Part shown: positions 12,590 through 60,378 of the stretch, piece by piece
How positions within the stretch are numbered: position 1 is the stretch's first letter
Layout: each line of letters opens with the position of its first letter
Source of the DNA: Scleroderma bovista
Lineage: Eukaryota; Basidiomycota; Agaricomycetes; Boletales; Sclerodermataceae
Assembly: GCA_037178675.1 (NCBI GenBank)
Contig: JAYMGJ010000211.1
Span: 1 to 64,000 of the forward strand
DNA: 64,000 nucleotides
Direction of reading: 5' to 3'
The notes under the pieces: model-generated
The model's database searches: none
The model's input: the letters and a program-made list of their open reading frames with translations, nothing else
What the model was told of the DNA's origin: nothing
Program-made: the position numbers and the translations under genes

Positions 12590-13419
12590 ATGCCACAGGG
12601 TGCAGTGCCATGGTTGTAGTGGTACTGTGGCTGCAGTTGTGCCATCGCCACAGTCTTTCCATGGCCGCAGTCTGTTGTGCTGTGGCCACAGTAGTGCCAT
12701 GGCCACAGTCATGCCATGGCCACAGTCATGCCATGGCCACAGTCATGCCATGGCCACAGTCATGCCATGGCCACAGTCATGCCATGGTTGCAGACTTGCC
12801 ATAGCTGCATAACCACCATCTTGCCATGGCCACAGTTGTACCATGGCTGCAGTTGTGATATGCTGCAGTTGTGCCATTGCCACAGTCTTGCCATGGCTGA
12901 GATTGTCATGGCTGCAGTCATGCCATAGCTGCAGTCTTTCTGCAACTGCAGTAGTGCCATGGCTGCAGTCTTGCCATGGCCGCAGTCTTGTCATGGCCAC
13001 AGTCCTGCTTTGGCCGCAGCCATGGCATCTTGCCATGGCCACAGTAGTGCCATGGCTGCAGTCTTGCCATGGCCGCAGTAGTAGTGCCGTGGCTGCAGTC
13101 TTGCCATGGCCGCAGTAGTGCCATGGCCGCAGTCATGCCATGGCTGCAGTAGTGCTGTGGCCATAGTAGTGCTATGGCTGCAGTCTTGCCGTGGCCGCAG
13201 TAGTGCCGTGGCCACAGTCTTGCCATGGCCGCAGTCTTGCCATGGCCACAGTCTTGCCGTGGCCACAGTAGTGCCATGGCTGCAGTCTTGCCATGGCCGC
13301 AGTAGTAGTGCCGTGGCTGCAGTCTTGCCATGGCCACAGTAGTAGTGCCGTGGCTGCAGTCTTGCTGTGGCCGCAGTAGTGCCATGGCAGCAGTCTTGCC
13401 ATGGCTGCAGTAGTGCCGT
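12590..13419. repeat. Short-unit minisatellite (15-18-bp CATGGCCGCAGT modules)
   Basis: The block consists of variants of 'GCCATGGCCGCAGTCTT' and 'GCCATGGCCACAGTAGT'. A 17-bp unit is repeated exactly from about 12704 to 12786. Variation is mostly C/T or G/A at CG positions (GCCGTGG, GCCATGG, GCTGTGG). The array is cut by Gypsy-1 at 13419/13420 and resumes for about 15 bp after 19715. Confidence 0.85.
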
Positions 13420-13764: not shown

Positions 13765-13777
13765 CTACTCCCCCCTC
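13765..13777 (-). promoter_or_regulatory. Polypurine tract of Gypsy-1
   Basis: On the minus strand GAGGGGGGAGTAG lies directly before the TG of the 3' LTR. This is the expected primer site for plus-strand DNA synthesis. Confidence 0.8.
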
Positions 13778-16700
13778 AGGTGCAGGATTCCAGACTGCAG
13801 AACTGAGCGTCGCAAACCGTGAGGTTTTCGGGGATACGACTAAATAACGAGTCAAAGTCCGCTTGGGCCATACGAAGTTTTCGAGGAGCAGAGGGGTTTT
13901 CCCGGTAAAAGCGCTCGACTACCAGAGGAGAATTCTTTAAATTTGACGAGGGTTCCCATGTTCTCTCATGTTCCTCATATCCCTTCCAATGTACCAGATA
14001 CTGGAGTTGCCTTTTATAAATACGAGAAGCTACGACATAGTCCACTTCGTATTCTTCATCGCACTCTTCAGAAACATGTACCGGACCAGGCCGAGACACA
14101 GGCTGTCCGGGAAGAGGACCTAAATAAGGTTTAACCCGAGAGACATTCACAACCGGGTGAATCCAAAGAGTTTTCGGGAGCTTAAGCTTGACCGCATTCG
14201 GGATTACGCGAGTGACCTCATAGGGGCCAATCCATTTCTCCGTAAGCTTCTTAGAAGCACGATTTAGCATACGAAGGTTGTCCGTAGAAAGCCAAACCTG
14301 TTGGCCTACAACATAGTTCGGGGCAGGATTTCTATGCTTATCCACCTGAAGCTTCATATTATGTTTTGCCTTCTCAGAAGACTCAACAACTTTATTAAAT
14401 ACGGCGGCAAAGTCTTTAGCTGCTGGGGCTGCTGTGTCCACTGGCTCAACACCCATACGAGGGGAATAACTCCGGGTAATTCCAAACGGTGAATCAGTGG
14501 TAACCTCCGAGACCGTATTGTTCCAAACGAATTGGGCAATTTTGATCCACTTGGCCCATTCGCTTTGTCGATCGTTTACGTAGGTTCGGAGATACTGATT
14601 AATTTCGCGGTTCAACCACTCCGTTTGACCATCGGTTTGAGGATGAAATGCCGTAGACATCTTCCTTTTTACGCCTAAGAGTCTATACAACTCCCCCAGG
14701 AAGTTGCTCGCAAAGACCGATCCGCGGTCTGACACAACGGAAGACGGGAGTCCATGCTGACACCAGACGTGGTCTCTAAATAACTCAGCGGTTGACAGGG
14801 CGGTTTCCTCTTTAGTACAAGGCACAAACACGACCTCTTTGGAGAATCGATCAACCACAACTAATATATAGTTGTAACCGAGGGATTCCGGCATCTCGGT
14901 AAAGTCCATGGTGACATCAAGCCACGGACCGCTAGGGGTAGGGAGAGGAACAAGAATTCCAGAAGTCTTTTGATTCAACACCTTGGACTGTTGGCACTTT
15001 TGACAGTGCTTTACATAGGTTTGAATCTGTTCTTTCATCCCTTTCCAAGAATAATGCTTCCTGAGCGCGTTATACGTAGCTTTTACTCCTTTATGACCAG
15101 CAACAGGAGTGTCGTGAAAGTTCGTAATGAGCGACTGTCGCTCTTCGTAAGACTGATCAGTGACGTCGACCAGCTTAACAGATACCGGGTTTAACAGGAC
15201 CTGGTCCTTGTTGTCATCGGAACTAGATACGTAATGGTCCGATCGCCTGCTAAGCGGATCTGCAACGTGCATCTGGGTTCCTTTCTTATAGATAAGTGAA
15301 TAGTTAAACTGCATCATCCACATCTGCCAGCGTGCTTGTCGCTTAGACAGGTTCTGTGACTTGGTGAAGTACGTTAAATTATGGTGGTCTGTGTAGATCT
15401 CAAAGGCATAAGGAGTGGCCTTGAGATAATGGCGCCATGCCTCAGTTGCTTTTATAATGGCCAGCATCTCTTTATCGTGACTAGGATAATTTCGTTCTGG
15501 AGGTGTCATGGAATGTGACATATATGCGACAGGTCTGAATTCACCGTCTTCGCACTTCACGGATATCACTCCCCCGATGGCGAACTCAGACGCATCGGTT
15601 TCGAGGCGGAATTCGCAGTCTTGATCGGGGTACTGAAGTACCGGAGCACGAGTAAAGGTGGCTTTCAAAGCCTCAAACGCAGCGCATTCCTTTTCTCCAA
15701 AGTTAAATACTGTATCTTTACACGTAAGGTCCGTCATGGGCCTAGCCATGATTGCATAATCTTTAATGAAGCGTCTATAGAAATTGCCAAGACCTAGGAA
15801 CGCGCGAACCTGCTTTACGTTCGTTGGCTCGGGCCACTTCAAAATAGCATTAACTTTTTCAGGGTCCATTTTGATACCCTCACATGACACGATCATTCCA
15901 AGGAAATCGACTTCGGTGACTCTGAAGCGACACTTCTCAGGTTTGACAAACAAATCGTTATCACGTAATCATTTCAAAACTTCCAGCATGATTCTATCAT
16001 GCTTTTCCTGATCGTCCGTATCCGTAAATATCATAAGGTCATCGATATACACCACGCAGACATCCGACATATCATGGAAGATCTCATTCATCATTTTTTG
16101 GAACGTCGCGGGTGAATTGCAGAGACCGAAATACATAACTAATGGCTTGAAAGCCCCTTTGTGCATTACAAATGCAGCTTTCCACTCATCGCCTTCACGA
16201 ATCCTCACGTTGTTGTAACCCCAACGAAGATCCATTTTCGTGAAGAGTTTACAACCCTTAAGCTTGTCAACAAGCTGAGAGATAAGCGGCAGCGGATAGT
16301 TATTTTTAATTGTCCAGTCGTTTACATAACGGTAATCCTGTACCATGCGCTTCTTGCCGTCCTTTTTCGGGATAAAGAAGACCGGTGACGTCTGTTGACT
16401 AATAGAAGGCTGAATGTATCCTTTAGCGAGTTGATCATCAATGAACGATTCGACTTCTTTCTGCTCATCAACAGAGAGCGGGATAAGTCTTCCCTTTTTG
16501 GGTGGGAAGTCTTCTTTTAGATCAATTCCATGATCCCAAGGTTTTCTTAGTGGCATGCGCTCCGATGACTTTTTACTAAATACGTCTAAGAACTCCCAGT
16601 ACTCTTTAGGCACCTGCTTCTGAGCTTCCTCTAGGGTCGACTCATCAATAGTAACCTTTGATTCATGAGCTTTCAAAGCTTGTACCCAAGTTTCCTGAGA

Positions 16701-17549
16701 CTCATTTTCTCGTAATAACTTAGCAAAGCGTGTCTCTAAAAGTGACTTGCACTCCGGAGGACACCTAGTTAAATTAACTTTGCCGGTTACCCAATCTATA
16801 TCGGGGTTGTGCTTCTGGAGCCAGGTGTGGCCAAGGATAAGCGGCACTTTTCCAAGGCACGTGACGGCACACCACAGCTTTTCAGCATGTTTTCCAATAC
16901 CGACTGTTAATAATACATAATGCGTGATATCACCCTCCTGATTTCTAGTGCCATCGACGTTAAGCACCGGGATGGGTTTCACCAGCTTAGATAACTGAAG
17001 CCGTCGACCAAGAGCCCAGCTCTTGTCAACAAAACAACCAGTAGCGCCACTGTCTAGCAGAGCGTCTACTTTAATAGTATTAAGCGGTCCATGGATGCAG
17101 ACCGGTACCGTCACTTCACGTTCCATTGTGAAGGACCTTTGTAAGTCCATGAAAACTTCCAAGTTGCCGGCGGGACTTTCCGGTTCCTTAGATGCCAAAG
17201 AAGGAGAAGAAATATTTTTATTCGATCGGGAATTAAGCATGCTCGTTTTTACTTCCGGCGCCGAGCCCTTTGCAGGGACCCCCTTAGAAGGTACAGTATA
17301 GTCCGAGTCACAGTCCATAGTATCAACAGATAACACAGAGTAGCGAGAAGGAGAAACAGAGACAGGAGAAACTACAGAAGACACTTTTTTGTGGGTTTTC
17401 GCTATTTTTGTATGTAACAAAGCAATGCGGTATTTAAATATTTCCTGTACTGCAGGAGTAGTAGCACGAGAAAGTCTATAGTCCAGAATACGTACAGCTA
17501 AGTCCAAGGAAGACTCAAGAGCGAGGATGCCCGTTTTATCCTCACTCAC
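13776..17549 (-). pseudogene. pol: Gypsy-1 Pol polyprotein with one in-frame TGA
   Basis: Two open stretches in the same frame (17549-15969, 526 codons; 15953-13776, 725 codons) are separated by a single TGA at 15971-15969. In order: retropepsin (VDALLDSGATGCFVD); reverse transcriptase with YIDD near 16050-16038; RNase H (LETDASEFAIGG, TDHHNLTYF); integrase HHCC zinc domain (HDTPVAGHKG... CQKCQQSK); DDE core (MDFTEM, VSDRGSVFASNF, HPQTDGQTEWLNREI); C-terminal chromodomain (YLVHWKGYEEHERTWEP), which in this group guides integration to chromatin marks. Around the stop, 'VLK-stop-LRDNDLFVKPEKC' normally has Arg; CGA to TGA is one CpG transition. Apart from this the polyprotein looks functional. 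Confidence 0.92.
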
Positions 17550-18547
17550 TAATCTTTTAAATCTTTGAAGAACGCCTGCATTTCTGCAAATGTCATTCCT
17601 CTGACCGCATTTAGCCGGTCATCCTCTGGCTGGGCTTGCGTTGCCCGTGCTTGTGGTTGCCCACGACAAGGGCGGCGCGGCTTTGTGCACTCACGTGCGA
17701 TGTGGCCAAATAGTTGGCAATTGTAGCATTGGGGCCCTTTACCCCTTTGCTGGTTTGTTTCAGCGGCACCTATATCCATCGGGACACCACTCCCAGATGC
17801 GGCTGAAGACGAATAAGATTGGCCCTGGTAATATCGGGCAGAGCCTTGCCCTTGGAGGTTGATAAGGAAGAGTTCTTGGGCTCTCCCCATTGCACGAGCA
17901 GAAGCTGCGAGTCGGTCATACGTGTCCCGACGCATTCCCTGTATATAAATCTGCTCCAAGAGTTTCCTCTGGAGCGCGCGTTTGAGCAAGTCACAAGCGT
18001 ACTCATCTCCACAGCCCCCTTGGTTTTTGAGCGCCTCGAACTGTGCCAAGAAATCGTCAACTCTCTGCCTCGGGCCCTGCCTAAGGCGGAGGAGTTGGGC
18101 ACGTGCCCACTCAGCGTTGTTTCCGGGGAGAAAGAACCTCTCTATCTCCTCGGCGAAATCATCCCACGCAGGCCAGGCTGGCGGGGGCGGGAGCTGTCCA
18201 GGCGGGACTGGCGGGGCGTTGGCGAGGGCCTGGGCTGCCGCCATGCAGCCGTCCAGATGTACCTGAGCCCACCGACCAGCCTTTGGGCCAGTGAGCCGGG
18301 AGAGAACTGTGGCGGTAACCTGGGCGTCATTTGCCCCCTCCATCGAGATCTGTAACCAAATCTTGATCTTGGACCACCACTCGTGGAACTTCTCAGGGGA
18401 GCCATCATAACTCCCGGGATCCGCGACCACCTTCTTACGCGGCGGCGGTGCAGGGTGAGGCTGTGCAGCCGCAAGGGCTGCGATATGCGCCTGGAGGTCA
18501 ATTTGCCCCTGGATAAGCTGTCCGAGGAGCTGGTTAAGGTCTGCCAT
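17549..18547 (-). CDS. gag: Gypsy-1 Gag protein
   Basis: 332 codons from ATG at 18547. The N-terminal half is a Retrotrans_gag-type domain (KFHEWWSKIKIWLQ, FLPGNNAEWARAQLLRLRQG), which forms the virus-like particle. Near the C-terminus is one CCHC zinc knuckle (CYNCQLFGHIARECTKPRR) for RNA binding. The stop TAG at 17551-17549 overlaps the first base of the Pol frame (TAGTG), which opens with GTG rather than ATG. Pol may therefore be made by frameshifting or termination-reinitiation. The frame is intact. Confidence 0.9.
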   Translation of the reverse strand: MADLNQLLGQLIQGQIDLQAHIAALAAAQPHPAPPPRKKVVADPGSYDGSPEKFHEWWSKIKIWLQISMEGANDAQVTATVLSRLTGPKAGRWAQVHLDGCMAAAQALANAPPVPPGQLPPPPAWPAWDDFAEEIERFFLPGNNAEWARAQLLRLRQGPRQRVDDFLAQFEALKNQGGCGDEYACDLLKRALQRKLLEQIYIQGMRRDTYDRLAASARAMGRAQELFLINLQGQGSARYYQGQSYSSSAASGSGVPMDIGAAETNQQRGKGPQCYNCQLFGHIARECTKPRRPCRGQPQARATQAQPEDDRLNAVRGMTFAEMQAFFKDLKD

Positions 18548-19339
18548 GAGGACCTAGTAGGGGTGGAGGTGGGAATAGGGGGTAGGTCTTTGTTTAACCG
18601 GTCGAAGACGGGAGGACCGAAACGTGCGGCAAGGGCGGAACAGGAAGGGAACGGTGGAAACCGAGGAGGACTTGGATTTCGAAGTTGCTGACAAGGCGAC
18701 TGTAGGCGGCAATGGCGTTGGTGAACTGAAACTCCTCTTCGATCGCTGACTCTCTTTCTTGTACTTTGACAAGGGTGTCAGGGCGGGGACCGTAAATGAT
18801 CGCCAAGCGCTCCTGTTGCACTTCGACGAGGTGACGAGGGAACTGGTAAGGTATGGTGACTACCGTAAGGGGTGACGTAGGAGTAAGGTTACTTTGGGAC
18901 TAGATCCCCACAGTTGTTCCACTAAACTAAGCGTAAGACTTTGTTCGCCTGTCACGCTCGCCGGGTCAGGGCAGTGGCACAGCTATGCAAAGAACAAATG
19001 GCTAGTGGCTGCAGATCACAAGGTCTACCTCTGCACGGACGCAGGAACTACTGAGTACGTATGTCTCAACCGCCTTGAGGCTGCGAACCTCTCTTGAACG
19101 GGCGCCGACCTTCAGACACCAGGCACGACCCTGGGCTGGTGTACAGTACGTAAAGGATACGGTGCTAAGAACTCCCAATGCCGAAGCACTACGGGAACGG
19201 CACTAAAGGCTGGCCGTGAACGAAACGGAAGGTATGAAGATGAAGCTCCTTAACCCTGGAGTCCGGGTATAGTTTCCCTTTACTAGGCTGGGGAATAGCG
19301 CGTGGTAGAACAAGTAGATGGTTTAGATTCGAGCTCAGG
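18548..19339 (-). other. Gypsy-1 5' leader between LTR and gag
   Basis: About 790 bp without a credible ATG-initiated gene; short frames here start at non-ATG codons. It presumably carries primer binding and packaging signals. The bases after the 5' LTR on the minus strand (CCTGAGCTCGAATC) did not match a common tRNA 3' end that I recognise. Confidence 0.6.
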
Positions 19340-26615: not shown

Positions 26616-28064
26616 ATGACCATGACTACGCGCTCTCGTGCTCGTACTGCTGCTGCACTCGCTGAAGAAGCAGGTGCAGTAGACGACCTTCACCTTTCTG
26701 CCGCCCAGCAAGCCCTGTCTAATCGCAGGCAACCTCCGGCTTCTGTAAGCCAATTCCAGAGCTTTACAGCTTGAAACCCCACAGCACCTTTGACTCCGCG
26801 TCGAGATGCTGCGTCTCAGAGCCTTCGCGGTTCTGCAGACTTAGGTCGCCATGAATCTATTTCTGGTGACAGGTTTCCCTACCGTCGTGACTCCACTCCA
26901 GAGCGTCGCAAACCCGGTCGTTTCCAATGGTTCGGCCCTGAGGATGGTCCTGGAGATGATCCGGACGACCCCGAAGATGATAACAACAACAACAACGATG
27001 ACGACGACGACGAATTTCTCGACGCCACGGAAGAACTAGATCCTAGCCTGGCTGTCTTCCACAATCTCGCCATCGCCGTCAACCGCCTCTCCCGCTCCTC
27101 CCGCCGTTCCAACGACTCCTCCTCCTCCCGTGCCAAGGTCTGTGAACCAGACACCTTCGATGGCATGGACCCCAAGAAACTCCGGACCTTCTTGGTCCAG
27201 TGCGAATTATGTTTCCAGGATCGCGCCAAAGTGTTCCGCCAAGATAGGGCAAGGGTGATGTTCGCCCAGTCCTATCTAAAAGGTATGACACTGGAATGGT
27301 TCGAACCGGACCTCCTCAACTCCGGTAATCCGGCTGACCGTCCGCGCTGGATGGACAGCTGGGTCCACTTTGTCACAGAACTCCAAAGTACCTTTGGACC
27401 TCATGACCCAGTTGCTGATGCTGAGCACCAGCTCGAGCATCTCCAGATGAAAGACTCGTACCGTGTTACACGGTACATTGTAGATTTCAACCGCCTCGCT
27501 TCGCAGGTCCAGGACTATGGGGATGGCGCACTCCGTCGCCTGTTTTACTCCGGTCTCCCGGACCGCCTCAAGGATGAGATCACCCGAGTCGGGAAGCCCC
27601 TGACTCTGAATGGGCTGAGAGCCCTTTGTCAAGAGATCAACGCGCGCTATTGGGAGCGCAAAGACGAGATCTCCCGTATGACGAAGAGCCAGCCTACCTC
27701 GTCCACTCCCAAGCCCTCCAACTCCGGAGGCAATACCCCCAAGTCCGGTCAAGCTCAGACCGGCAACTCCACCAGCTCCGCCAAAACCTCTGGCTCATCT
27801 AAGGCGACCAACAACCAGTCCTCGTCCGGCTCCAAACCGGACCTGACCAACAAGCTTGGCAAGGACGGGAAACTGACCGCAGACGAGCGTAAAAGGCGGC
27901 TCGACAACAACCTCTGCATGTTCTGCGGAGGTACTGGACACTTCGCGGACAACTGTCCAAAGAAGTCCAAAAAGGCCAAGGCTCGCGCTGCGGCCATCGC
28001 TGCTGAGTCCGGTAAAATGGACTCTACTAACTCGGGTGTCAACTCCGAGTCAAAAAAAGAGTAA
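26616..28064 (+). pseudogene. gag: Gypsy-2 Gag with one in-frame TGA
   Basis: The frame opens at ATG 26616 and runs to 28064 with one interruption, TGA at 26772-26774; CGA (Arg) would restore the sense reading and differs by one CpG transition. Downstream: an acidic low-complexity stretch of Asn/Asp (about 26980-27015); the Gag core (KLRTFLVQCELCFQDRAKVF, SYLKGMTLEWFEPDLL, RLFYSGLPDRLKDEI); and a CCHC zinc knuckle (CMFCGGTGHFADNCPKK). It would build the particle and bind RNA. An ATG at 26790 region could give an N-terminally shortened Gag only if a non-ATG start were used, so the lesion is probably inactivating. Confidence 0.88.
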
Positions 28065-28090
28065 GCAGCTCCCGGCCCTCTGCACAACTG

Positions 28091-31000
28091 GTGAGCTGCA
28101 TTGACTCCGGAAGTGCACCCAAGGAGGCCCGCCTCAATGTGTCCGCTCTTTTCGACCCAAACTCCCTTATGCCACATGTTTCCCTTTTGTCCTTTGATAT
28201 ACCTAAAATCTGCGCACTCGTGGACTCCGGGTCCACGCATTGTTTTGTAGATTTACGATTTGCGCACAAAAACAACATTACCTCTTACTCTGTCTCTCCC
28301 ATCCAACTCTGGTTATTTGATGGTACATCAAACTATGTAATTACTCAAGCTATCAATTTATCAGTGCAGTTCCCCACATCCGGTGATGTCACCCCCATGA
28401 CCTTTTATCTCGCTCCATTGGATTCTGAATGCTCGATTGTCCTTGGACATAACTGGCTCACCTGCTATAATCCGTTGATTGACTGGGTATTGAGTAGTTT
28501 AACATTCCGGACTCTTGCAGGAAGTTTGCCAACGCCCCCGTCGACTCCCTCTCCGGTTCCGCCCGGAAACCCTGACTCCAGCCTCTCCGGCCAGTCTACC
28601 CCAGGCCCTGTGCCATCTGTCGACACTCCGGTTTGCACCCCCCGCATATCTCCCTAATCAATGCAGCTGCATTCGTGTGTGCGTGCAGTTTAGAGGGATC
28701 CACGAAGTACCAACTTCAGCTGCGCCCTGCCGACTCAGCGAAGGCCCGGTCTTCTTCTACATCAACTCCGCCGGACCTGGACATTGTCCCTCCGGAATAT
28801 TGCGACTATGCGGATGTGTTCAGTAAAGCGAAAGCCTCTGAACTTCCCCCGCATCACGATTACGATTTGAAGATCGAACTCAAAGAAGGTACTTCACCAC
28901 CCCTGGGAACCCTTTACTCACTGTCTCCGGTCGAGCTCTCTGCTCTCCAGATGTTTATCGATGAGAATCTCACTACAGGTTTCATCCGCCCCACCTCTTC
29001 CTCTCACGCTGCTCCGGTCCTCTTCATAAAGAAGAAGGATGGCTCACTCCGCCTCTGCGTTGACTTCCGAGGCCTAAACACAATCACCAAAAAGGATCGC
29101 TATCCACTCCCCCTAATCTCTGACCTACTAGACTCCCCCAGCCATGCTAAGATCTATTCCAAGATCGACCTCCGGCACGCGTATCACCTAGTCCGGATTG
29201 CTCCGGGCGATGAATGGAAGACCACCTTCCGTACGCGCTATGGGTCCTATGAGTGGTTAGTAATGCCCTTTGGCCTCACTAATGCCCCTGCAGCTTTCCA
29301 GCGCTTTGTCAACACCATCTTTGCTGACATGCTGGATGTCTGTGTTGTTGTGTACCTCGACGACATCCTCATCTACTCCGAGGATATGGAGTCTCACCAG
29401 CAGCATGTCCGGGAGGTACTCCGCTGTCTCCGGTTGCATGGCCTCTTCGCCAAACCAGAGAAATGTGAGTTCCACTCGGACTCAGTGGAATACCTTGGCT
29501 ACTGTCTATCCCCTGAAGGTCTAACCATGTCTCCAGACAAAATACAAACCATCTCCGATTGGCCTGAACCTCGTAAGGTAAAGGACATCCAATCCTTCTT
29601 GGGATTCGCCAACTTCTACCGCCGGTTCATTTTCAACTACTCCGACATTGTGGTCCCTCTCACCCGGCTCACCCAGAAAGATGCTCCTTGGGTCTTCTCC
29701 GAGGACTGTCGACGCGCTTTCAATGCTCTCAAGCACGCCTTCACTACCGCGCCCATACTCACTCACTTTATTCCGGACACCCCTATCATCGTGGAAACGG
29801 ACGCCTCCGACTACGCAGTCGCTGGTATCCTGTCTATCACCTGCTCCGATGGAGAGATCCATCCGGTAGCATCTTCGAGGCATTCCGGAACTGGCGCCAT
29901 TACCTTGAAGGCTCCACCTCCCCTATTGACATTGTCACCGACCACAAGAACCTAGAGTATTTCTCTACCTCCAAAGTCCTCTCCCGCCGGCAAGCCCGGT
30001 GGTCTGAATTTCTCTCCCAGTTTAACCTTGTCATTTGTTTCCGCCCCGGAAAACTCAGTGCCAAGCCGGACGCTCGTCAAGGACTACGTCCGGTCATGCA
30101 CCTCCTGCGCTCGAGCTAAGACACCGCGCCATCGACCCTATGGGTTACTAAAACAGCTCCCTGTCCCGGAGAGACCTTGGAACTCCATATCCATGGACTT
30201 TATAGAGCAACTCCCTGCCTCTACCGGATTCACAGCTATCTTGGTCGTAGTAGATAGGCTCTCTAAACAGGCCATCTTCATTCCTACTCACGACACCATC
30301 ACTAGCCCGGAGCTTGCAAAGCTCTTCCTACTCCATGTATTCTCCAAGCACGGTGTTCCCGCCCACGTCACTTCAGATCGCGGTACTGAGTTTGTCTCCC
30401 ACTTCTTCCGGTCACTCAGAAAAGCCCTCGACATGCGCCTCCACTTCACCTCCGGTTACCACCCGGAGGGCGACGGCCAGACAGAGTGTTCCAACCAGAC
30501 ACTCGAACAATACCTCTGCATCTACTGCAACTACCAGCAGGACAACTGGGCGGAACTACTCCCACTGGCGGAGTTTGCTTATAATAACGCACCTAGTGCT
30601 ACCACCGGAGTCTCACCATTCTTCGCTAACAAAGGTTATCATCCTAACGTCTCCGTCTATCCAGAGCGCGATATGACCTCTGCACAGGCTCATGACTACG
30701 CAGTCGACCTCGAGTCGCTGCACCAATACCTTCGAGAAGAAATGGCCAACGCGCAACTTCGCTACCAAGGTCCGGCTGACGCCAAACGCACTCCGGCACC
30801 GGACTTCAAAGTAGGGGATCAAGTATACGTTAAAGCCAAGTACTTCCAGTCTACTCGACCATCCAAAAAGCTATCAGAAAAGAATCTTGGGCCCTACACT
30901 ATCATAGCACAAGTAGGCTCTCTCTCTTTTATGCTATGCCTTCCAGATTCCATGCGCGCCATTCATCCCATCTTCCATGTCTCCCAAATCGAACCGGCCA

Positions 31001-31275
31001 TACCCAACACCATACCGGACCGGATACAACCTCCTCCGCCACTGGTGGAAGTTGATGGTGAACCGGAGTTCGAGATCTCTGAGATCCTCAACTCCAAGGT
31101 TGACCGTCAACGCAGAACGTGCAAGTTGCTTTACTTGGTACGATGGTCCAGTTATGAAGGAACTGACAAAGAAACGTCATGGCTTCTCGCCACTGAACTT
31201 GGCAACGCTACGGAACTCTTAGAAGACTACCATGTCCGGTACCCAGACAAACCCGGACCACTCGCGTCCATGTAG
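28091..31275 (+). pseudogene. pol: Gypsy-2 Pol, broken by a frameshift and two deletions
   Basis: Protease ([13 protein letters not shown]) lies in one frame up to 28657. Reverse transcriptase then continues in another from about 28640 (LCVDFRGLN, VVYLDDILIYSEDM) to 29880. RNase H begins ([14 protein letters not shown]) but jumps near 29870 to [14 protein letters not shown], missing about 20 residues of the usual sequence. After [11 protein letters not shown] at about 30070 the reading jumps to [19 protein letters not shown], so most of the integrase zinc domain is deleted. The DDE core (SMDFIEQLP, TSDRGTEFVSHFF, YHPEGDGQTE) and a chromodomain-like C-terminus (KLLYLVRWSSYEGTDKETSW) are intact in the last frame (30028-31275). 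Products would be inactive. Confidence 0.9.
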
Positions 31276-33299: not shown

Positions 33300-34010
33300 T
33301 TACTTGCCATCCTGACAGACTTACTGAGTGCACTGGCTGGTCTGGAATGCTCTGGATGGGCTGACATACTAACATACTGATTGACTGACTGGAATGAGTG
33401 CTCTGGAATGGTCTGGAATGGTCTGGAATGGTCTGACACACTGACTGACTTATTGACTGACTAGTCTGAGTGATCTGGAATGCTCTGGATGGTCTGACAC
33501 ACTGACTGACTGACTGACTGATCTGACCAGTCTGAGTGGTCTGGAATGTTCTGGATGGCCAAACACATTGACTGACTTGCTATCTGAATGGTCTTAGTAC
33601 TGGTTTGGAATGCTCTGGATGGTCTTGAAACCTTGACTGACTTACTGTCTGAGTGGTCTGAGTGGTCTGAGTGGTATGGTATGGTATGGTATGGATGATC
33701 TGACACACTCCCCAACTGACTGTCTAAATGGTCTGAATGGTCTGGAATGGTCTGAGTGGTCTGGAATTGTCTGGATGGTCTGACATATTGCACAACTTAT
33801 GGTCTGAGTGCTCTGGGTGATCTGGAATGATCTGGATGATCTGACACACTGCCTGACTTACTGTCTGAGTGGTCTGGGTGGTCTGGGTGGTCTGACTGAC
33901 CTACTAACTTATTATCTGAGTGGTCTGGAATGGTCTGGACACTGATTTACTGTCTGAGTGCTCTGGATGGTCTGAAATGGTCTGGATGATCTAGGCCCTC
34001 TGACATGTCT
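33300..34010. repeat. Degenerate minisatellite of CTGACTGA / TGGTCTGGAATGGTCTG modules
   Basis: Variable mixtures of 'GGTCTGGAATG', 'GTCTGAGTGG' and 'CTGACTGACTTA' of about 50-65 bp. No gene. Confidence 0.75.
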
Positions 34011-35100
34011 GATTCCAGACCTGCAGTCTGATCCTAGACACATACAGACAGTTAAGTCAGTGTCAAACCACTTCAGACTGCTAAGTGGACTAAGTACTGT
34101 CAGACATTTTTTCAACTTGCTGATGTAATTGTAGATGCGGCCACCATCATTGATGATGGCAATGATTTACATTGTGGACTTGAAGTAATAAGTAGTTTTA
34201 CCAATAGGCTTGCATGGGGTGTGAGATGGGGGTGAGGCTATACAAACTAAGTGCTAGATGTACATATCTTGCAACAGCCTTGTACAGCATTGATGAGTCT
34301 GTCCAGGCTGTACAGAGTTGCAAATAAGCAAGAAAACTGTAGTGCCTGTGGCCAAAAAAGGCTGTTTTGCTGATGTTAGGTAGGGTTTGTACAGCACCTG
34401 AGGTTGGGTAATGGTCTGTATCACACTGAGAGGCAGTGTTGTCATAGACTATGGTCAGACCTGTCAGACCCAAAAGGTTAATAAATTCACACAGTCAATA
34501 TATAACTGGTCAGGGCTACTATTAACCCATTGTCAACAAACAAATGAGCAAACAAACATAATGGCCAGAAATGGAGTAATGTGATGTGACAAGCACCCAA
34601 ATTTGGAGATGTGATTGTCACACAGTTGCTTCATTACAGTTTCCAAGTCCATTGCAAAAACAACTAGTATTTTTGCTTAACCAGTCAGTGACCAGTCAAT
34701 GATGGGTAATCCAAACTTCACTCCCTATTGACTTGATTCTATTGACCAGTAGTCAAATTGACCTTGTCAACACTGCTGAGAGGTAACTGTGACATGACTG
34801 CACAGTGGGCAACCTACCTGTGGTGCTGTACTAAGCATTGTCCCCACTGTTACAGGCCTGTATAGTCAGTTACTAAATTGTTGATGCTAGAGGGCCATGT
34901 CGGTGAGATTCAGATAAAATGGGACTAAGTAACATGTACTAGAAGAGGATGTCACAACATGGAAATGTAATGTAACAAATAGCAAATTCTTCAGACAAAA
35001 AGAATTGATATGGTCAAAGGAAACCTTCAAATATGATTAGGGTTAAAGGAGCTTCTTTGCTGGCAGACATCATCAGACACTTTATATAGTTCTGAAAAGG
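34011..35100. other. No recognisable gene
   Basis: AT-rich sequence with short open frames only. It lies downstream of the 3' end of the GTPase-like gene and may include its 3' untranslated region. No repeat or element end was recognised. Confidence 0.4.
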
Positions 35101-35101
35101 A

Positions 35102-38100
35102 TCACTTACACATACAGTTGTTTACAATGATATCAACAGTGACCTGCATTAAGGCATCATAGTTATTATTGCTATGTTCCTTAATGGCATGCTGAAGAGC
35201 ATCAAGAACAGTGGCTTGGGTTCCAGAGGTTTGATATTCCTTCACAGCAAGATTAAGAGTATTGCTTGCATCCCCATTTTGCTGCAGAAGAAAGTAGGAG
35301 TATTCAAAAATGAGAATGCATCCTTTGAATGGTTTAGAGAGTACATGTGAGAAAGGAAATTTCCTCACCAGCTCCATGAATGATTGACTTGTGCACTGGG
35401 GAGACCATAAAAAAAGGATGCATTAAGGGTAATACACCAGATGCAATATCAACATCAGAGTCTTTCTGTTAGATCACAAAACACATCAGTTAAATTCTAA
35501 TGAAAGAAATGGGGCCTCACAAACTGAGCAGAAGTCATATTGGCATATTAAAATGAATAGATATAAATAATATACCAAATGCTAGAAGAACATAATAGGA
35601 AACATAAATAAGTGACAAATTGAATGGCTTACATTCTAAATATTTAAAAGTTATGAAAGGTGCCAATAAATAAGTGGGAATGAGAACAAAAAAATATGCT
35701 CACATCCTGAAGGCATTTGTGTAAGATTAATCACACTATATTTGCATCAGAGGACTGTACAAATGATAAACTTACTTGCTGATAACAAAAAAGATGGAAG
35801 TATGCCATGGAAATATAATTAGAATTAAATCAGGATCTAGAATAAAAATTACACACATTCTAGGAAGCCAACAGGACCAAAGTGGGGGAGAGCAGAGTGA
35901 GAAGGGACCCAGCTGGACCTGGAATGAAATCACTCACCAACTGTCAAGCCAACAGCACCAGAGTGGGAGTGAGAACAGTCAGAAGGGACCCAGCTGGACC
36001 TGCCATGAAATCACTCACATACTGTCAAGCCAACAGCACCAGAGTGGGAGTGAGGACAGTCAGAAGGGACCCAGCTGGACCTGCCATGAAATCACTCACC
36101 AACTGTCAAGCCAACAGCACCAGAGTGGGAGTGAGGACAGTCAGAAGGGACCCAGCTGGACCTGCCATGAAATCACTCACTTGCTGTCAAGCCAACAGCA
36201 CCAGAGTGGGAGTGAGGACAGTCAGAAGGGACCCAGCTGGACCTGCCATGAAATCACTCACTTCCTGTCAAGCCAACAGCACCAGAGTGGGAGTGAGGAC
36301 AGTCAGAAGGGACCCAGCTGACCTGCCATGAAATCACTCACTTCCTGTCAAGCCAACAGCACCAGAGTGGGAGTGAGGACAGTCAGAAGGGACCCAGCTG
36401 GACCTGCCATGAAATCACTCACCAACTGTCAAGCCAACAGCACCAGAGTGGGAGTGAGGACAGTCAGAAGGGACCCAGCTGACCTGCCATGAAATCACTC
36501 ACTTCCTGTCAAGCCAACAGCACCAGAGTGGGAGTGAGGACAGTCAGAAGGGACCCAGCTGGACCTGCCATGAAATCACTCACCAACTGTCAAGCCAACA
36601 GCACCAGAGTGGGAGTGAGGACAGTCAGAAGGGACCCAGCTGGACCTGCCATGAAATCACTCACTTGCTGTCAAGCCAACAGCACCAGAGTGGGAGTGAG
36701 GACAGTCAGAAGGCACCCAGCTGGACCTGCCATGAAATCACTCACCAACTGTCAAGCCAACAGCACCAGAGTGGGAGTGAGGACAGTCAGAAGGGACCCA
36801 GCTGGACCTGCCATGAAATCACTCACTTCCTGTCAAGCCAACAGCACCAGAGTGGGAGTGAGGACAGTCAGAAGGGACCCAGCTGGACCTGCCATGAAAT
36901 CACTCACTTCCTGTCAAGCCAACAGCACCAGAGTGGGAGTGAGGACAGTCAGAAGGGACCCAGCTGGACCTGCCATGAAATCACTCACATACTGTCAAGC
37001 CAACAGCACCAGAGTGGGAGTGAGGACAGTCAGAAGGGACCCAGCTGGACCTGTCATGAAATCACTCACTTGCTGTCAAGCCAACAGCACCAGAGTGGGA
37101 GTGAGGACAGTCAGAAGGGACCCAGCTGGACCTGCCATGAAATCACTCACTTGCTGTCAAGCCAACAGCACCATGAGGACAGTCAGAAGGGACCCAGCTA
37201 AACCTGCCATGACCTGTCAAGCCAACAGCACCAGAGTGGGAGTGAGGACAGTCAGAAGGCACCCAGCTGGACCTGGCACAACATCACTCACATACTAGTA
37301 TCATGCCAACCAAGCAATAATCATAGTTAGAGCTCATTCATTCTTACCATGGATTTGGAAATCTAATCACCTATTGCAACAATTTTATCACATCAAACAC
37401 AAGGTAAATGCTTTCCCAACCTTAGATGGCATCCAGCTCATTATGCACATTTCCAAGGCTATCTTGTCAAATTTGTTTTCCATCACAAAGTATTTCAGTC
37501 CTCTGCCCAATACTTGAGTGTCAGCACCATATGATATATCAATGTCAATATCACTCTCCTACCTTTTAACTGAGTATTCAATGTTCAGAACAATGTTAGC
37601 TTTCTGGGTTGAAACTACCAGCTTTTGCAGTTCCATCTCATTAAGAGCCTCTGTTGTGCATCTTAGGAGTGAACTACAATCTGCATCCTCTTGGTTCATT
37701 CCTACATTTGTATTAGCATCACCATAACATTAATTCAATCCATAACTCACTGGCCACTGACAAATAGGCCTTTGGGGGATACTTGCAGCCACTCAACTGG
37801 CTTTCAATTTTTGCCTTCAGCTTGCTTAACATCTCTGCTGCAAACTCTCCAGCCCTTGGCCTTGCTTCTCTCATTGTTAAACCACTTTCTCTCATGAGTT
37901 GGTTGAGAGCAGGCACTCTTAAACTATCAGCCTTTGTCAACACAGCAATTACAGGCACTCCCCAACAATCATATCAGAATCAGAATCATACCACTCAGAA
38001 TGAAGTACCTTACCATTTCCTGTATTGCATTCATTGAAGAACTTCTCTTCTGCAGCCAAAATTGGCCTCTCATAATCAGCCATTGAGATACAAAACCTAG

Positions 38101-38792
38101 GTCACCATCGAGCTTATATGATATATCCCTTAACTGGAGTTGTGATCTCACCAGATGGCATGGATACGCTTTTCCAACTTCAGTGTGCGTGCTCGATCAG
38201 TGACAAAGTCCTTCATCAGGTTCAGCTCCTTCACAGAGCCAGTCTCGAATCCTCGTGAGTCATGAAATATAAAACCTGGGTTGCTCCGAAAAATCAGTTC
38301 ATCTTCAATGTTATGATACCCCCTCTGGATAGAGTTAGTCTAGTTCATGTCACCGAACAAACTCTCGTAGGCCGACTCGCCTCCAATGACCCCTGCACGA
38401 TCGCAGGATCAATCTGCGAAATGCCATGCATCAGTTAGTCGAAGGGACATATGATACGGTAGCATGAGGTGCTTGACCTTTTCGCCTTTGGCATTGAAGA
38501 TCTCCGGGAGCTCTGTTGTGTTGCAAACACGCTGCAAGAGCGTCGTTTTACCTGCATTTGACCTGCCGAGGACGAGGATTCTGAAGCGACCAATGCGATC
38601 GAAGTGCTTTTTGACTTCCGCAGGATCCATCCTGAAAGTGTCTACCGCAATATCATTGGATAACGTACAAACAATCGTGGTGACTAGACCTGGAAGTTAC
38701 TACTCACTCGCTTCGTCGGAACCTGCAGCACGCTGCCCAGAGTTCCTGAATGGTAGAGCCGACCGAAACTTGCTCAAGAGTCCAGGAGCCAT
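35102..38792 (-). CDS. P-loop GTPase-like (G-domain) protein with micro-exon array
   Basis: Exons on the minus strand: 38792-38704, 38631-38478, 38413-about 38363, 38324-38152, 38096-38014, 37957-37751, 37701-37563, 37502-37421, 37362-37348, then a chain of tiny exons, then a final open frame ending at 35102. Junctions are in phase except the 3' end of exon 3, which is uncertain (implied intron only 38-52 nt). Motifs: Walker A LVLGRSNAGKTTLL (about residues 49-62), DSRGFE (Walker B/G3) and VLTKAD (G4), as in fungal G-domain proteins related to the AIG1/dynamin-like P-loop group; it should bind and hydrolyse GTP. The distal part (QATVLDALQHAIKEHS) is helical. The last piece reads open with or without an 87-nt intron (35368-35282). 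The partner and cell role are unknown. Confidence 0.75.
35860..37294 (-). repeat. 81-bp tandem array of intron-like units within the GTPase-like gene
   Basis: About 17 units, period 81 bp (80 bp in two units that lost one G). On the gene strand a unit is GTGAGTGATTTC ... TTCTGACTG ... GGCTTGACAG, exactly 78 nt with consensus donor, CTGAC branch site, pyrimidine-rich tract and acceptor, followed by 3 nt and the next GTGAGT. Units are almost identical, and those 3 nt are the main variable site: GAA five times, TTG five, CAA four, TAT three. Near 37154-37291 two units are shortened by deletions. Plus-strand open frames of 149-269 codons across the array arise only because 81 is divisible by three. 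Confidence 0.9.
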
Positions 38793-38890
38793 TCTCGCAG
38801 AAATTTGTTTGCTGTGAAGTTGTATCACGGGAGAGTTGTGTAAAGAGGCGAACGGAGAGTGGTGGTCAAAGTACAAGTCGCAAGGCCAAC

Positions 38891-39935
38891 ATGAGGCCAA
38901 TTGATTATCGGGGCGCTTATCGTGGGACTTTTAGAGGGCGTTGTGCTCGTAGCGCCGCCGCGAGCGGAGGCATCTCTGAAGTCTTGATCATGCCAATATA
39001 CCCCTCCCCGTTCCCCCTCCTACGGGGCCTACACACAGGTCATCGTCACCAGTTCCCTTGGTACCGACAGTCCCAAACTCACCAGTCTTCTCCAACCCAG
39101 GCTTGATGCCAAGGTACGGACAGGGTCGGAATTTTAACGTTTTGCACGATGGACAGTTTCCCGTTGGGTATGCTCCACCGAGCATAAGTGCGGGTAGCGC
39201 TCCCTCAGGGGGTCCACAGGATCCGGTGATTCCTTCGAATCTACGCCCAGGTTCCCAGCGCTACTCGCCATACTATGCGCCTCAACAGTCGCAGCCCCAT
39301 CCTGTCGCCGAACGTGAATGGAGAGGGACATGGATAGGAATAGAGACAGGAGGAGCTAGCATGGCGAACGCCAGAAAGAGAGGGCCGCACGTGGGCGGAA
39401 GACGAGTCTTACATATCCAACATCGCCAACACCCACTGACCTGATGTACCCCGCGCCGCCGATCTCTCGTGATCCCACTTTACGACCTTCAAGTCCCTTG
39501 CAGTCAACGCTGGACGAGCGCCGCCGCAGTGCAGCGGGTATGACACCAGCAATGCGTGCGCAAAGGTGCGGACAGAAATGAGTCCTGCCGGGACGTACAT
39601 CGACGGCGTCGTCGCATGGGTCGAATCCGCGGTACAGTGTGCCTGGACGTACTTCGTCCCAGGGCTTGCAATCGCGAGGTGGCGGTGGGTACGTTCGGTA
39701 CGATCCGCAGGACAATGATCCAGCATGGATGTCGAGTCGGGAATCGCTCGATGCTGTTACGGACGCGAATGCGGGGACGTACTTTCACCGTGCTTTGGCA
39801 ACATTGCAGACTGCCATTGCTGCAACTGCTACTAGCTCGGGCAACAATGGGCCCAGGAGCAGCGGCGGCGACAGAGGAAAGGGCAAGCGCTGGCAAGAGG
39901 AGGGTAGATGCGCGGGTGAACATTTTGACTGAGGT
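38891..39935 (+). pseudogene. Pro/Ser/Gly-rich hypothetical protein gene, probably decayed
   Basis: Divergent from the GTPase-like gene (99 bp between ATGs). It starts MRPIDYRGAYRGTFRGRC at 38891, moves to a second frame rich in Pro/Ser/Gln (PGLMPRYGQGRNFNV, SQRYSPYYAPQQSQPHP) until 39444, and to a third (TYPTSPTPTDLMYPAPP; SRESLDAVTDANAGTYFHRA) ending at 39932. Stops at about 39355 and 39580 interrupt the third frame. Introns could explain some shifts, but I could not find a full set of phased splice sites. The last 45 codons overlap the antisense hydrophobin fragment and are probably not original. No domain recognised. Confidence 0.4.
39788..39923 (-). pseudogene. Hydrophobin first-exon fragment (class I type)
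   Basis: ATG at 39923 opens a secretory signal peptide (MFTRASTLLLPALALSSVAA), followed by a short linker and CSNGSLQCCQST, the first Cys and Cys-Cys pair of a class I hydrophobin. These small secreted proteins self-assemble at air-water surfaces of fungal walls. A plausible donor (GTGAAAGT) follows at about 39787. The remaining five cysteines do not appear on the minus strand as far as 38800. Instead the DNA continues as the third-frame end of the Pro/Ser-rich gene on the opposite strand. This is a 5' fragment joined to foreign sequence. Confidence 0.75.
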
Positions 39936-49425: not shown

Positions 49426-50668
49426 ATGAGCCAAGGATCCTCGAGCTCTCCCATCCTCAACTCCGTCGTCTATCTCAACTACCTCAATTATACAGTTGCA
49501 CATGACTATGAGTTCACAAGGGATGTATCCCTGGTTACACTTGGTGTACGTCGTGCAGCTGTGGTCCCAGTACATCACCCATCTGATGTACACCGGCAAA
49601 GGCCCTGGCCTGGGACATTCTTTCGAGTATCCCAGAAGATTACAGGTTGATCCAGACGGGGAAGATATCCGCTGTGTTGTTTGCTTACTTCCTGGCTAGG
49701 TCAGGTGTTTCGTCCGTCTATCCTAACTATTTTCCTGACATTTTCAACAGACCATCTGCGCTCACTATGGTAGTTCTGGATGTCATGCTAAAGAGTAGGT
49801 GTTTCCTCGTATTCGGAGCACACTCGTCTGATGAGTTGCACTTTTTCTCTGTGCTGTAGCGGGTCCAATCAATAACTGCACCGTCATAGCCATTGTCCTC
49901 ATGGCGCTGCAAACAGTCTCGACTGCGGCATCCTCATACCTCTTCCTCAAACGTGTCCACGCTGTTTACCACGGAAACAACATAGTCAGGCACCTCTTTA
50001 GTTTTATGTGGCTCGTCGGCGTGGGCACTTCCTGCGCAGTGTTTTCTGGGACTCTACACGACTACATCGAAATTGCTGACACGAAACACTGTCTGCGATA
50101 CCAAAACCAGGCACAATTGACCATCGCTTATGCGATGCCTGTTATCTTCGACGTCCTTGTCTATTTTGCGATTTCATACAAGATCATCACCACTCATAGA
50201 TTGGGGAAGAAATGGTCCTGGGGGGACTTTTGGCGTGGAAAAGCATTCCCTCATTTCTCTCAGGCGATATTAAGCGGAGGACAACAGTACTATGGGTAAG
50301 GAACGGTATTATTCAAGTGGCAATCTAGATGCTCGACACTAATCTTTCTGCACAGAATTACCAACTCGCTCAACATAACACGGCTGACGGACGGCTCACA
50401 GACCAGCAAGTCTCCTACACTCCGACTCCTCTTCTTGAGTCCCGCTGTGGCGTTGACGAGCGCTATGGCTTGCCGAGTACACCGCAATCTGATCATCGAG
50501 TCATTGCTTGACTCGGAAGGGATGAACGGGAAGTCATTGACTGCGCCAAAATTCGCAGATAGACGAGTCGCGAACCAGACGCTTCCAACGAGTACGATAG
50601 CATCCGTGTCACCCTATTTTGAGTCTGATGTCGAACGCGGTTGTAGTGTTCCAAAGGGAAAGTTTTGA
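49426..50668 (+). CDS. Multi-pass membrane protein, copy A
   Basis: Exons 49426-49545, 49602-49699, 49751-49794, 49860-50295, 50356-50668; 336 residues. It starts MSQGSSSSPILNSVVYLNYL. Hydrophobic segments include the exon 1/2 junction, KISAVLFAYFLA, TVIAIVLMALQTVSTAASSY, FSFMWLVGVGTSCAVF, AYAMPVIFDVLVYFAISY and SPAVALTSAMA, giving six or seven membrane spans with a polar C-terminal tail. This organisation is common in large basidiomycete-specific membrane families of unknown function that resemble receptors. Exon 3 is 44 nt. Intron 2 (51 nt) is also open if retained, adding 17 residues. First member of a tandem family. Confidence 0.8.
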
Positions 50669-56275: not shown

Positions 56276-57523
56276 ATGAGCCAAGGGTCCTCTCTCGTCC
56301 TCAACCCCGTCGTATATCTCAACTACCTCAATCATACAGTCGCAGGTGACTATGAGATCACAAGGGATGTGTCTCTGGCTACACTTGGTGTACGTCGTGC
56401 AGCTATGATTCCAGTATCTTACCCAAACTTACCCATCTGATGTACACCGGTTAAGGCCCTGGCCTGGGACATTCTCTCGAGTATCCCGGAAGATTACAGG
56501 TTGATCCAGACGGGGAAGATATCCGCTGTGTTGTTTGCATACTTCCTGGCTAGGTCAGGTGTTTCGTCCGTCTATCGTACTGTTTTCCTGACATTTTCAA
56601 CAGACCATCTGCGCTCACTATGGTAGTTCTGGACGTTATGCTGAAAAGTAGGCGTTTCCTCGTATTCAGAGCACACTTGTCTGATGAGTTGCACTTTTCG
56701 TGCTGTAGCGGGTCCCATCAATAACTGCACTGTTATAGCCATTGTCCTCATGGCGCTGCAAGCAGTCTCGACTGCGGCATCGTCATACCTTTTCCTCAAA
56801 CGTGTCCACGCTGTCTACTACGGAAACAACATAGTCAGGCACTTCTTTAGTTTTATGTGGCTCGTAGGCGTGGGCACCTCCTGTGCAGTGTTTTCTGGGA
56901 CTCTCCACGACTACAGCGAAATTGCTGACACGAAACATTGTCTGCGATATCAACACCAGGCAGAATTGACCATCGCCTATATGGTCCCTGTTATGTTCGA
57001 CAACCTTGTCTATTCTGTGATTTCATACAAGATCATCACCACCCATAGATTGGGGAAGAAATGGTCCTGGAAAGACTTTTGGTGCGGAAAACTTGGGTTC
57101 CCTCATTTCTCTCAGGCTATATTAAGTGGAGGACAACAGTACTATGGGTAAGGAACGGTATTATTCTGGGAGCAATCTAGACGCTCAACATTGATCTGTC
57201 TGCACAGAATGACCAACGCGATCAACACAGCACGGCTCTCGCTCAGCTCACAGACCAACATTTCTCCTACTCTCCAACTACTCCTCTCGAGTCCCGCTGT
57301 GGCGTTGACGAGCGCTATGGCCTGCAAAGTATACCGAGATCTGATCATCGAGTCATTGCTCGACTCAGAAGGGATGAACGGGAAGCCATTGACTGCACTA
57401 AAATTCGCAGATAGACGCCGAGTAGTGAACCAAACGCTCCCAATAAACGCAACCATATCGGTGTCGCCCTATTCTGAGTCTGATGGTGAGCGCGGCTGTA
57501 GTGTTCCAAAGGGAGAGGTTTGA
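56276..57523 (+). CDS. Multi-pass membrane protein, copy C
   Basis: Exons 56276-56389, 56456-56553, 56604-56647, 56709-57147, 57208-57523; 336 residues, no stops. It starts MSQGSSLVLNPVVYLNYLNH. Intron 2 is 50 nt here against 51 nt in A, so it cannot be read through in frame; this confirms that it is a real intron. It has one extra codon before the HFSQAILSGGQQYY block. Hydrophobic profile is as in copy A. Confidence 0.85.
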
Positions 57524-59138: not shown

Positions 59139-60378
59139 ATGAGCCAAGGATCCTCTCACATCCTCAACCCCGTCGTCCATCTCAACTACCTCAATCATAC
59201 AGTTGCAATCGACTATGAGATCACAAGGGATGTGTCTCTGGCTATACTTGGTGTACGTCGTGCAGCTATGATCCAAGTATCTTACCCAAGCTTACCCATC
59301 TGATGTGCACTGGTAAAGGCCCTGGCCTGGGACATTCTTTCGAGTATCCCGGAAGATTACAGGTTGATCCAGACGGGGAAGATATCCGCTGTGTTGTTAG
59401 CTTATTTTCTGGCTAGGTCAGGTGTTTCGTCCGTCTATCCTAACTATTTTCCTGACGTTTTCAACAGACCATCTGCGCTGACTATGGTAGTTCTGGATGT
59501 CATGCTGAAGAGTAGGCGTTTCCCTGAATTCAGAGCACATTTGGCTGATAGTTGCACCTCTCTGTGCTATAGCGGGTCCTATCAACAACTGCACCGTTAC
59601 AGCCATTGTCCTCATGGCGCTGCAAGCAATCTCGACTGTGGCATCGTCATACCTTTTCCTCAAACGTGTCCACGCTGTCTACTACGGACACAACGTAGTC
59701 AGCCACTTCTTTAGTTTTATGTGGCTCGTCGTTGTGGGCACCTCCTGTGCAGTGTTTCCTGGGACTCTTTACGACTACAGCGAAATTGCTGACACGAAGC
59801 ACTGTCTGCGATACCAAAAACAGGCACAATTGACCATTGCATATGTGACCCCTTTTGTCTTCGACTTCCTTATCTATTCTGCGATTTCATCCAAGATTAG
59901 CTCCACCCATGGATCGGGGAAAAAATGGCGCTGGAAGGACATTTGGCGTGGAAAAGCGCTCCCTCATTTCTCTCAGGCTATATTGAGCGGAGGACAACAG
60001 TATTATTTGTAAGGAACGGTATCATTCTGGTAGCAATGTAGACGCTCAACACTAATCTGTCTGCACAGAATTACCAACTCGATCATCGTAGCACGACTTG
60101 TGTTGGGCTCACAGCCCAACATATCTCCCACTCTCCAACTACTCCTCTCGAGTCCCGCTGTGGCGTTGACGAGTGTTATGGCTTGCCGAGTATACCGAAA
60201 TTTGATCGAGTCATTGCTCGACTCGGAATGGATGGACGGGAAGTCATTAACTGCGCCAAAATTCGCAGATAAACGAATAGTAAACCAGACGCTCCCGACG
60301 AGCGCGACAGTATCGGTGTCGCCCTATTCTGAGTCTGATGTGGAGTGCGGTTGTAGTGTTCCAAAGGGGGAGGTTTGA
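59139..60378 (+). CDS. Multi-pass membrane protein, copy D
   Basis: Exons 59139-59252, 59319-59416, 59468-59511, 59573-60008, 60069-60378; 333 residues. It begins MSQGSSHILNPVVHLNYLNH. Changes cluster in loops, for example TTHRLG becomes STHGSG, and one residue is lost in the tail (RNLIESL). The donor after exon 4 has changed context (TATTATTTGTAAGG), giving Leu instead of Gly at the junction, as in copy E. No lesions seen. Confidence 0.85.

Follow-up and report, generated by a model that had tools for sequence, protein, structure and literature searches.

A chain of probable one-codon exons built from tandem introns in a GTPase gene family of Scleroderma bovista

Genes composed of many very short exons are known from Schistosoma, whose micro-exon genes (MEGs) form a diversified family with many successive very short exons, mostly multiples of three in length, and are hard to annotate automatically (PMC10526429). 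That paper gives 10-20 exons of 6-81 bp (3-81 bp in the abstract), introns of 0.1-5 kb and secreted products. Here we analyse a stretch of 64,000 nucleotides (nt) from the basidiomycete Scleroderma bovista (GenBank assembly GCA_037178675.1, contig JAYMGJ010000211.1, positions 1 to 64,000; hereafter the window), in which a GTPase-like gene on the minus strand contains a tandem array of 81-bp units. Judged from its sequence, this array is very likely a chain of real exons of a single codon each. What these loci share with MEGs is a large number of short exons with lengths divisible by three, here 606 of 3 nt across 22 loci. The differences are that there are between 20 and about 80 exons per locus, almost all of them 3 nt long, that the introns of about 78 nt are similar or identical and stand in tandem, that the gene encodes a GTPase, and that the usual length of the array introns, 78 nt in a search range of 40-120 nt, lies outside the 0.1-5 kb of MEGs.

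Small microexons, including some of 3 nt, are also known from animals and plants, where annotation often misses them (PMC7821500, PMC8831610); there they are described as single exons, with neither a chain nor a tandem intron array. For filamentous fungi, a paper from 2024 states that functional microexons were undescribed (PMC11121469). An initial annotation of the window, made from the letters alone, had known of no described system of this kind, and nothing comparable was found by us in the open-access literature, subscription papers and preprints being outside the scope of that search. Fungal incompatibility genes with WD, ANK or TPR minisatellites likewise combine homogeneous tandem repeats with hypervariable codons in a lineage-expanded family, but there the repeat is coding, whereas in the arrays described here each repeat contributes a single codon and is otherwise intron. 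Introners likewise place many near-identical introns in one genome; the introns considered here were found at one position of one gene family and are spaced by exactly one codon. The patterns used to find the unit and the strict chain matched only array loci (one of them, C512, at a contig end; C numbers denote loci of this genome and P numbers proteins of relatives), and diverged single copies elsewhere would escape these patterns.

After splicing, the predicted gene of the window (Table 1) is a single open frame of 456 residues. Its 34 exons comprise nine conventional ones, 22 of 3 nt, a single one of 6 nt and, at the end, exons of 97 nt and of 221 nt (stop included); the introns measure 46-138 nt. 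Direct reading of the minus strand from 34000 to 39500 confirmed every coordinate and triplet that the initial annotation had given for the array and its tail, including the 17 junctions (TAT 3, CAA 4, GAA 5, TTG 5), which in order encode Y QQ Y EE L Q L E L EE Q L Y L. The approximately 22 one-codon exons it had counted agree with the 22 exons of 3 nt, plus one of 6 nt, in the predicted open model, and they are sense codons in the phase of the flanking exons, as it had claimed: there is no stop, and the chain starts and finishes in phase 0. Its unit of a 78-nt intron plus 3 nt holds in general, although two introns are of 77 nt, and the unit near 37213 has neither the NNN nor a donor and was joined into a probable first intron of 138 nt. 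An intron at 35437-35396 could not be upheld, because the frame is open across it and its AG is missing in most of the paralogs compared; the region was assigned to one exon of 97 nt. Tandem Repeats Finder (TRF) reported a period of 81 with 18.0 copies at 35865-37296, and 10 of the 15 introns given a length of 78 nt by the chain search match the consensus exactly. Tandem amplification of an intron unit, varying mostly at the codon, is supported by the sequence. The chain encodes the segment YQQYEELQLELEEQLYLNQDNHLF, and the model predicts a tryptic peptide, SMYQQYEELQLELEEQLYLNQDNHLFK, that covers the whole chain. The GTPase-like character of the gene was confirmed by a Pfam match to MMR_HSR1 (E 3.1e-5, above the cut-off of the profile), and Foldseek match lists are topped by GTPases. 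Immunity-related GTPases (IRGs) are the best fold matches, slightly above G-domains alone, but at about 10% identity and a root-mean-square deviation of about 8, which denotes at most a shared fold; sequence searches brought up no IRG, either in Pfam (E up to 0.5) or in the PDB (E up to 1).

Table 1. Features of the predicted GTPase-like gene in the window (exons listed in transcription order)
Feature	Positions	Strand	Details	Basis
Whole predicted gene	35102..38792	-	34 exons, 456 aa, ATG 38792, stop 35102	
Conventional exons 1-8	37421..38792	-	N-terminus and GTPase domain	MMR_HSR1 profile and Scleroderma relatives
Exons 1-4	38792-38708, 38641-38478, 38413-38381, 38324-38152	-		
Exons 5-8	38096-38014, 37957-37751, 37701-37563, 37502-37421	-		
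15-nt exon	37348..37362	-	ISKSM; adjoins chain, phase 0 at its end	gene model
Tandem array	35938..37294	-	17 three-nt exons, introns 77-78 nt, first about 138 nt	TRF and model
Probable first array intron	37154..37291	-	138 nt; spans the degenerate unit near 37213, without NNN and donor	sequence and model
Non-repeated tail of chain	35521..35859	-	unrelated introns	counterparts in paralogs
Tail exons	35859-35857, 35778-35776, 35706-35704, 35635-35633	-	AAT, CAA, GAT, AAT	
Last two tail exons	35581-35576, 35523-35521	-	CATTTG (6 nt), TTT	
97-nt exon after chain	35369..35465	-	KDSDVDIASGVLPLMHPFFMVSPVHKSIIHGA; entered in phase 0	post-chain match in 12 loci, window included
Last exon	35102..35322	-	C-terminal helical domain, ends NCMCK	downstream of chain in 13 loci, window included

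The initial annotation had treated the chain as a property of one single gene, whereas our data reveal it as usual across the whole GTPase family. In the genome of S. bovista (51.8 Mb, 850 contigs), a protein search with the GTPase domain of the window gave at least 196 exon matches, and a hand count among the matches listed gave at least about 49 family loci on about 40 contigs, near-copies such as C127 and C298 included. We read 25 loci, counting the window (a first set of 22, three of them later lengthened, and then C60, C730 and C257), and in 22 of the 25, again counting the window, a chain follows the GTPase exons. Within the first set, the stretch read reaches the C-terminal domain in 13 loci and ends earlier in nine, and that of C131b starts within its array. 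In the chain search, splice sites were scored with values set by hand, exon length had a flat prior (1-60 nt) and introns were confined to 40-120 nt; 3 nt came out as the commonest exon length in 20 of these 22 loci, with shares ranging from 4 of 11 exons in C534 and 15 of 33 in C127 to 74 of 76 in C453; C60 has 60 exons of 3 nt and C730 eight (1.5 kb read), without a stop in either. In 13 loci the chain is followed by the C-terminal domain (GCILIFEYSYF...NCMCK), and the exon preceding this domain was matched in 12. The tail exons also correspond among paralogs: AAT or CAT, CAA, GAT, a 6-nt exon encoding xL (CATTTG, AATTTG, AACTTG, GCATTG or CCACTG), and then TTT, CTT or ATT. The exact unit pattern, consisting of intron start and branch motif, occurs at 96 places on seven contigs, that of the window among them, all of them array loci, and around these places the AG-NNN-GT step spans dozens of units, including those of C131 with diverged introns. 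The strict chain pattern marked 17 loci, 16 of which adjoin a family GTPase on the same strand by hand comparison with the matches listed; the seventeenth is C512. In C838, from 6940, the donor before the first triplet is lost and an insertion lies within the first array intron; C838 is probably a dead copy. In C513 (1757-2827) the GTPase frame continues, by eye and without a profile, into TPR-like repeats, and C257 is a weak GTPase match only.

The 606 three-nt exons in the first 22 loci (591 without C127, the near-copy of C298) comprise 35 kinds of codon and not one stop, against 78 expected from position frequencies, and among distinct triplets stops are likewise absent, where 20000 shuffles gave a mean of 16.1 and a minimum of 5. 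No triplet ends in C, compared with 21.5% of the conventional codons of the window; the donor context may filter the codons that such exons can carry. NTA codons are rare in this set. Of 549 array introns, 98 are of a length other than a multiple of three, and 431 would introduce an in-frame stop if retained. An AG between branch point and acceptor is missing from 494 of 521 introns, a proportion biased upwards because the score penalises such AGs. In a refined search, 471 of 509 exons were of 3 nt and 11 of 6 or 9 nt.

In 12 loci, AG-N{k}-GT at k=3 occurs 512 times on the sense and 27 times on the antisense strand, where counts peak at k=7 (408) and k=1 (268). Counting AG-NNN-GT was rejected as a proof in itself, since the antisense strand of perfect repeats, that of C60 included, also yields lattices. 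Because homogeneous arrays give such an antisense lattice too, the weight is carried by the diverged arrays C131a, C111, C298 and C206, whose sense scores of 730, 684, 467 and 482 exceed the antisense scores of 257, 217, 217 and 215 by a factor of 2.2-3.2, and in which 3 nt is dominant on the sense strand only. In the initial chain search, C131b scored 741 on the sense and 109 on the antisense strand. Genome-wide, the strict chain pattern gave 42 matches against none for a reversed control, and a looser pattern 655 and 687 matches against 65 and 222, partly antisense within repeats.

Further evidence comes from proteins of relatives. When the GTPase part was used as a protein query, the best 120 of 1267 matches were headed by Boletales, with Scleroderma in first place at 79-84% identity; 64 of these 120 were examined. 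Many annotated models end just past WFP or WMP or continue with the C-terminal domain, and those that end there often carry a few residues resembling intron read-through. Two proteins whose source is marked lgn, by our reading assembled public reads, resemble cDNA because all conventional introns are read through. One of them, P0083, equals the annotated Pisolithus tinctorius protein P0081 at 353 of 354 residues up to WFPNTK, past which P0083 has 44 residues rich in Q, E, Y and R (DLPPYEQPQYQQQEGETREQWYERRYQEEQEQ...) to its end, and P0081 has the C-terminal domain. The other, P0013, has about 80 residues rich in K, E, S, L and W after WMPY, followed by VSDFMAGPAGC, which is the array intron translated in phase 0, as if the assembly had kept one intron. 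Among the observations made here, we consider these two proteins the strongest indication that the codons are present in mRNA; stretches at the very place of the chain make it unlikely that the repeat lies within one long intron that is fully removed. In composition, the P0013 stretch was closest among 14 arrays to C298 (0.63), C206 (0.63) and C60 (0.62), of which C206 and C60, and not C298, belong to its closest subfamily, a likeness that is suggestive only. Similar intron peptides in Pisolithus models (VSELMAGLTGC in P0063, VSDLMACLAGC in P0070, VSEFMASLAGC in P0067) indicate that the array probably predates the two genera.

Several observations weigh against a chain of one-codon exons. The support at transcript level comes from proteins of relatives rather than from S. 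bovista itself, and the stretches in these proteins, seen at protein level, would presumably derive from 3-nt exons. As a protein query the P0013 stretch matched only itself, and queries with the segment of the window and with the C-terminus matched no further relative. No chain was found in C838, C513 and C257, three of the 25 loci read. In the refined search 27 of 509 exons have another length (2, 5, 7 or 13-56 nt), most of which we take, without proof, for missed introns; C60 has five exons of 7 nt, and C333 has two neighbouring 2-nt exons (GA) at 95662 and 95582, which would shift the frame unless they are errors, and which represent either a frameshift or bases lost from GGG runs in the assembly. 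The sequential splicing of introns only 3 nt apart is itself a predicted step.

Three other explanations were considered. The region 37347-35466 could be a single intron with a minisatellite, removed in one step, in which AG-NNN-GT is accidental or provides decoys. The annotated relatives P0068 and P0081 skip the region, and the reading frame is identical with or without the chain because its exons are multiples of three; yet the absence of stops in 606 triplets, the persistence of chains in paralogs with diverged introns, the recurrence of the 6-nt xL exon and the stretch in the cDNA-like proteins speak against an intronic minisatellite, and we consider it very improbable. Alternatively, a long intron might be removed stepwise by recursive splicing, with the triplets as ratchet points whose loss or inclusion is random and the segment as a noisy by-product. 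AG-NNN-GT resembles recursive splice sites and any skip leaves the frame intact, but zero stops, no codon ending in C, a composition characteristic of each gene and the long unbroken stretches in P0013 and P0083 speak against this explanation, which we regard as unlikely.

A protein encoded on the plus strand, with a tandem repeat of 27 residues of which one is variable, would agree with a period of 81 (27 x 3) and with open frames of 247 and 271 aa in the window and antisense frames of up to 1909 aa in C453. Repetition of one stop-free unit yields open frames automatically, though, and the frames shrink where units diverge, to 158-208 aa over 2.8-5.5 kb in C131a, C131b, C298 and C111 and to 350 aa over 3.0 kb in C206; units of 80 nt moreover shift the frame, and both the sense-strand gene and the cDNA-like proteins fit the minus strand instead. 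We rejected plus-strand coding, to which we assign a next to negligible probability.

Under the preferred interpretation as one-codon exons, each 81-bp unit would be a spliceosomal intron of about 78 nt plus one codon, and splicing would join 24 codons in the window gene between the GTPase domain and the C-terminal helical domain. Units could be duplicated, deleted or skipped with the frame intact, since each adds exactly one codon, and retention of an intron would in most cases lead to a stop, so that length and composition of the segment would be free to vary. Diversification of the protein by unit duplication throughout the family is likely.

The flanks of C211a and C211b are 95-96% identical, and the resemblance of their codon strings stays within that of shuffled strings (longest common subsequence 8, against at most 9 after shuffling); codon order is partly kept in C244 and C333 (19 with the shared tail counted, against at most 18 after shuffling), with flanks 96-98% identical and a common intron consensus, and in C127 and C298 (15 against 12). 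Identical 78-nt introns make up 26 of 31 in C333 and 28 of 33 in C217, and triplets flanked on both sides by identical introns number 21 of nine kinds and 22 of seven kinds, respectively. Pairs with equal codons and pairs with unequal ones barely differ in intron similarity in 13 of 16 arrays and differ clearly in C211b, C206 and C158p (C244, C333 and C217 were only partly read at that stage). In C453, intron variants travel with the codons TGG and TTG, so that block duplication also occurs.

Point mutation and selection after duplication is difficult to reconcile with C333 and C217, where identical introns surround differing codons, and for homogeneous arrays simple tandem duplication appears insufficient; intron-bounded conversion or strong diversifying selection are candidate alternatives. 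A 3-bp target duplication predicts runs of equal triplets, an excess of which over shuffles occurs in C298 (6 against 1.9) and in none of the 12 further arrays tested. That introns were inserted at random in an existing exon is disfavoured by reasoning, as insertion needs no spacing of 3 nt, which duplication of an intron with its codon does. Introns would be made uniform throughout a gene and across young duplicates, with codons kept diverse or actively diversified. C244 and C333 could be alleles; in the adjoining 5 kb their homology ceases after about 0.7 kb, apart from one match of 160 bases that lies about 3 kb further on along C244. C127 and C298 are 99.6% identical over 4.97 kb, and C127 breaks within its array (at about 108970) into unrelated repeat-rich DNA.

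The weakest part of the proposal is the role of the segment, which might be a fast-evolving stalk or recognition surface of lineage-expanded, IRG-like GTPases; a function in recognition is a tentative guess. More doubtful still, the arrays could be a generator of diversity in which the intron is the copying unit, homogenised up to the splice sites, e.g. by conversion from excised intron RNA, while single hypervariable codons give rise to individual-specific recognition stalks on these GTPases.

If the chain is real, the spliceosome would be able to string together dozens of 3-nt exons, against the usual minimum exon size, and the annotation of a Boletales gene family would often be wrong, its models halting at the chain or jumping it. 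Tandem duplication of introns would then lengthen and vary a protein by single residues with the frame kept. Part of each such protein is likely assembled one amino acid per splice, a mode of constructing and varying proteins that would be new. Identical introns around unlike codons also pose a testable question: what homogenises the intron and not the adjacent three bases?

Elsewhere in the window, two retrotransposon-like coding regions with gag, protease, reverse transcriptase and integrase-like parts were recognised by eye, without a profile, at 13776-18553 (minus strand) and 26775-31275 (plus strand). Four related open reading frames resembling membrane proteins (AGPINNCTVIAIVLMALQAVSTAASSYLFLKRVHAVY) lie on the same strand as one another at 49835-50299, 56645-57151, 59509-60012 and 61591-62106. 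At 12628-13411 a 17-bp repeat is present about 46 times, and the minus strand there has open frames of 166 and 180 aa.
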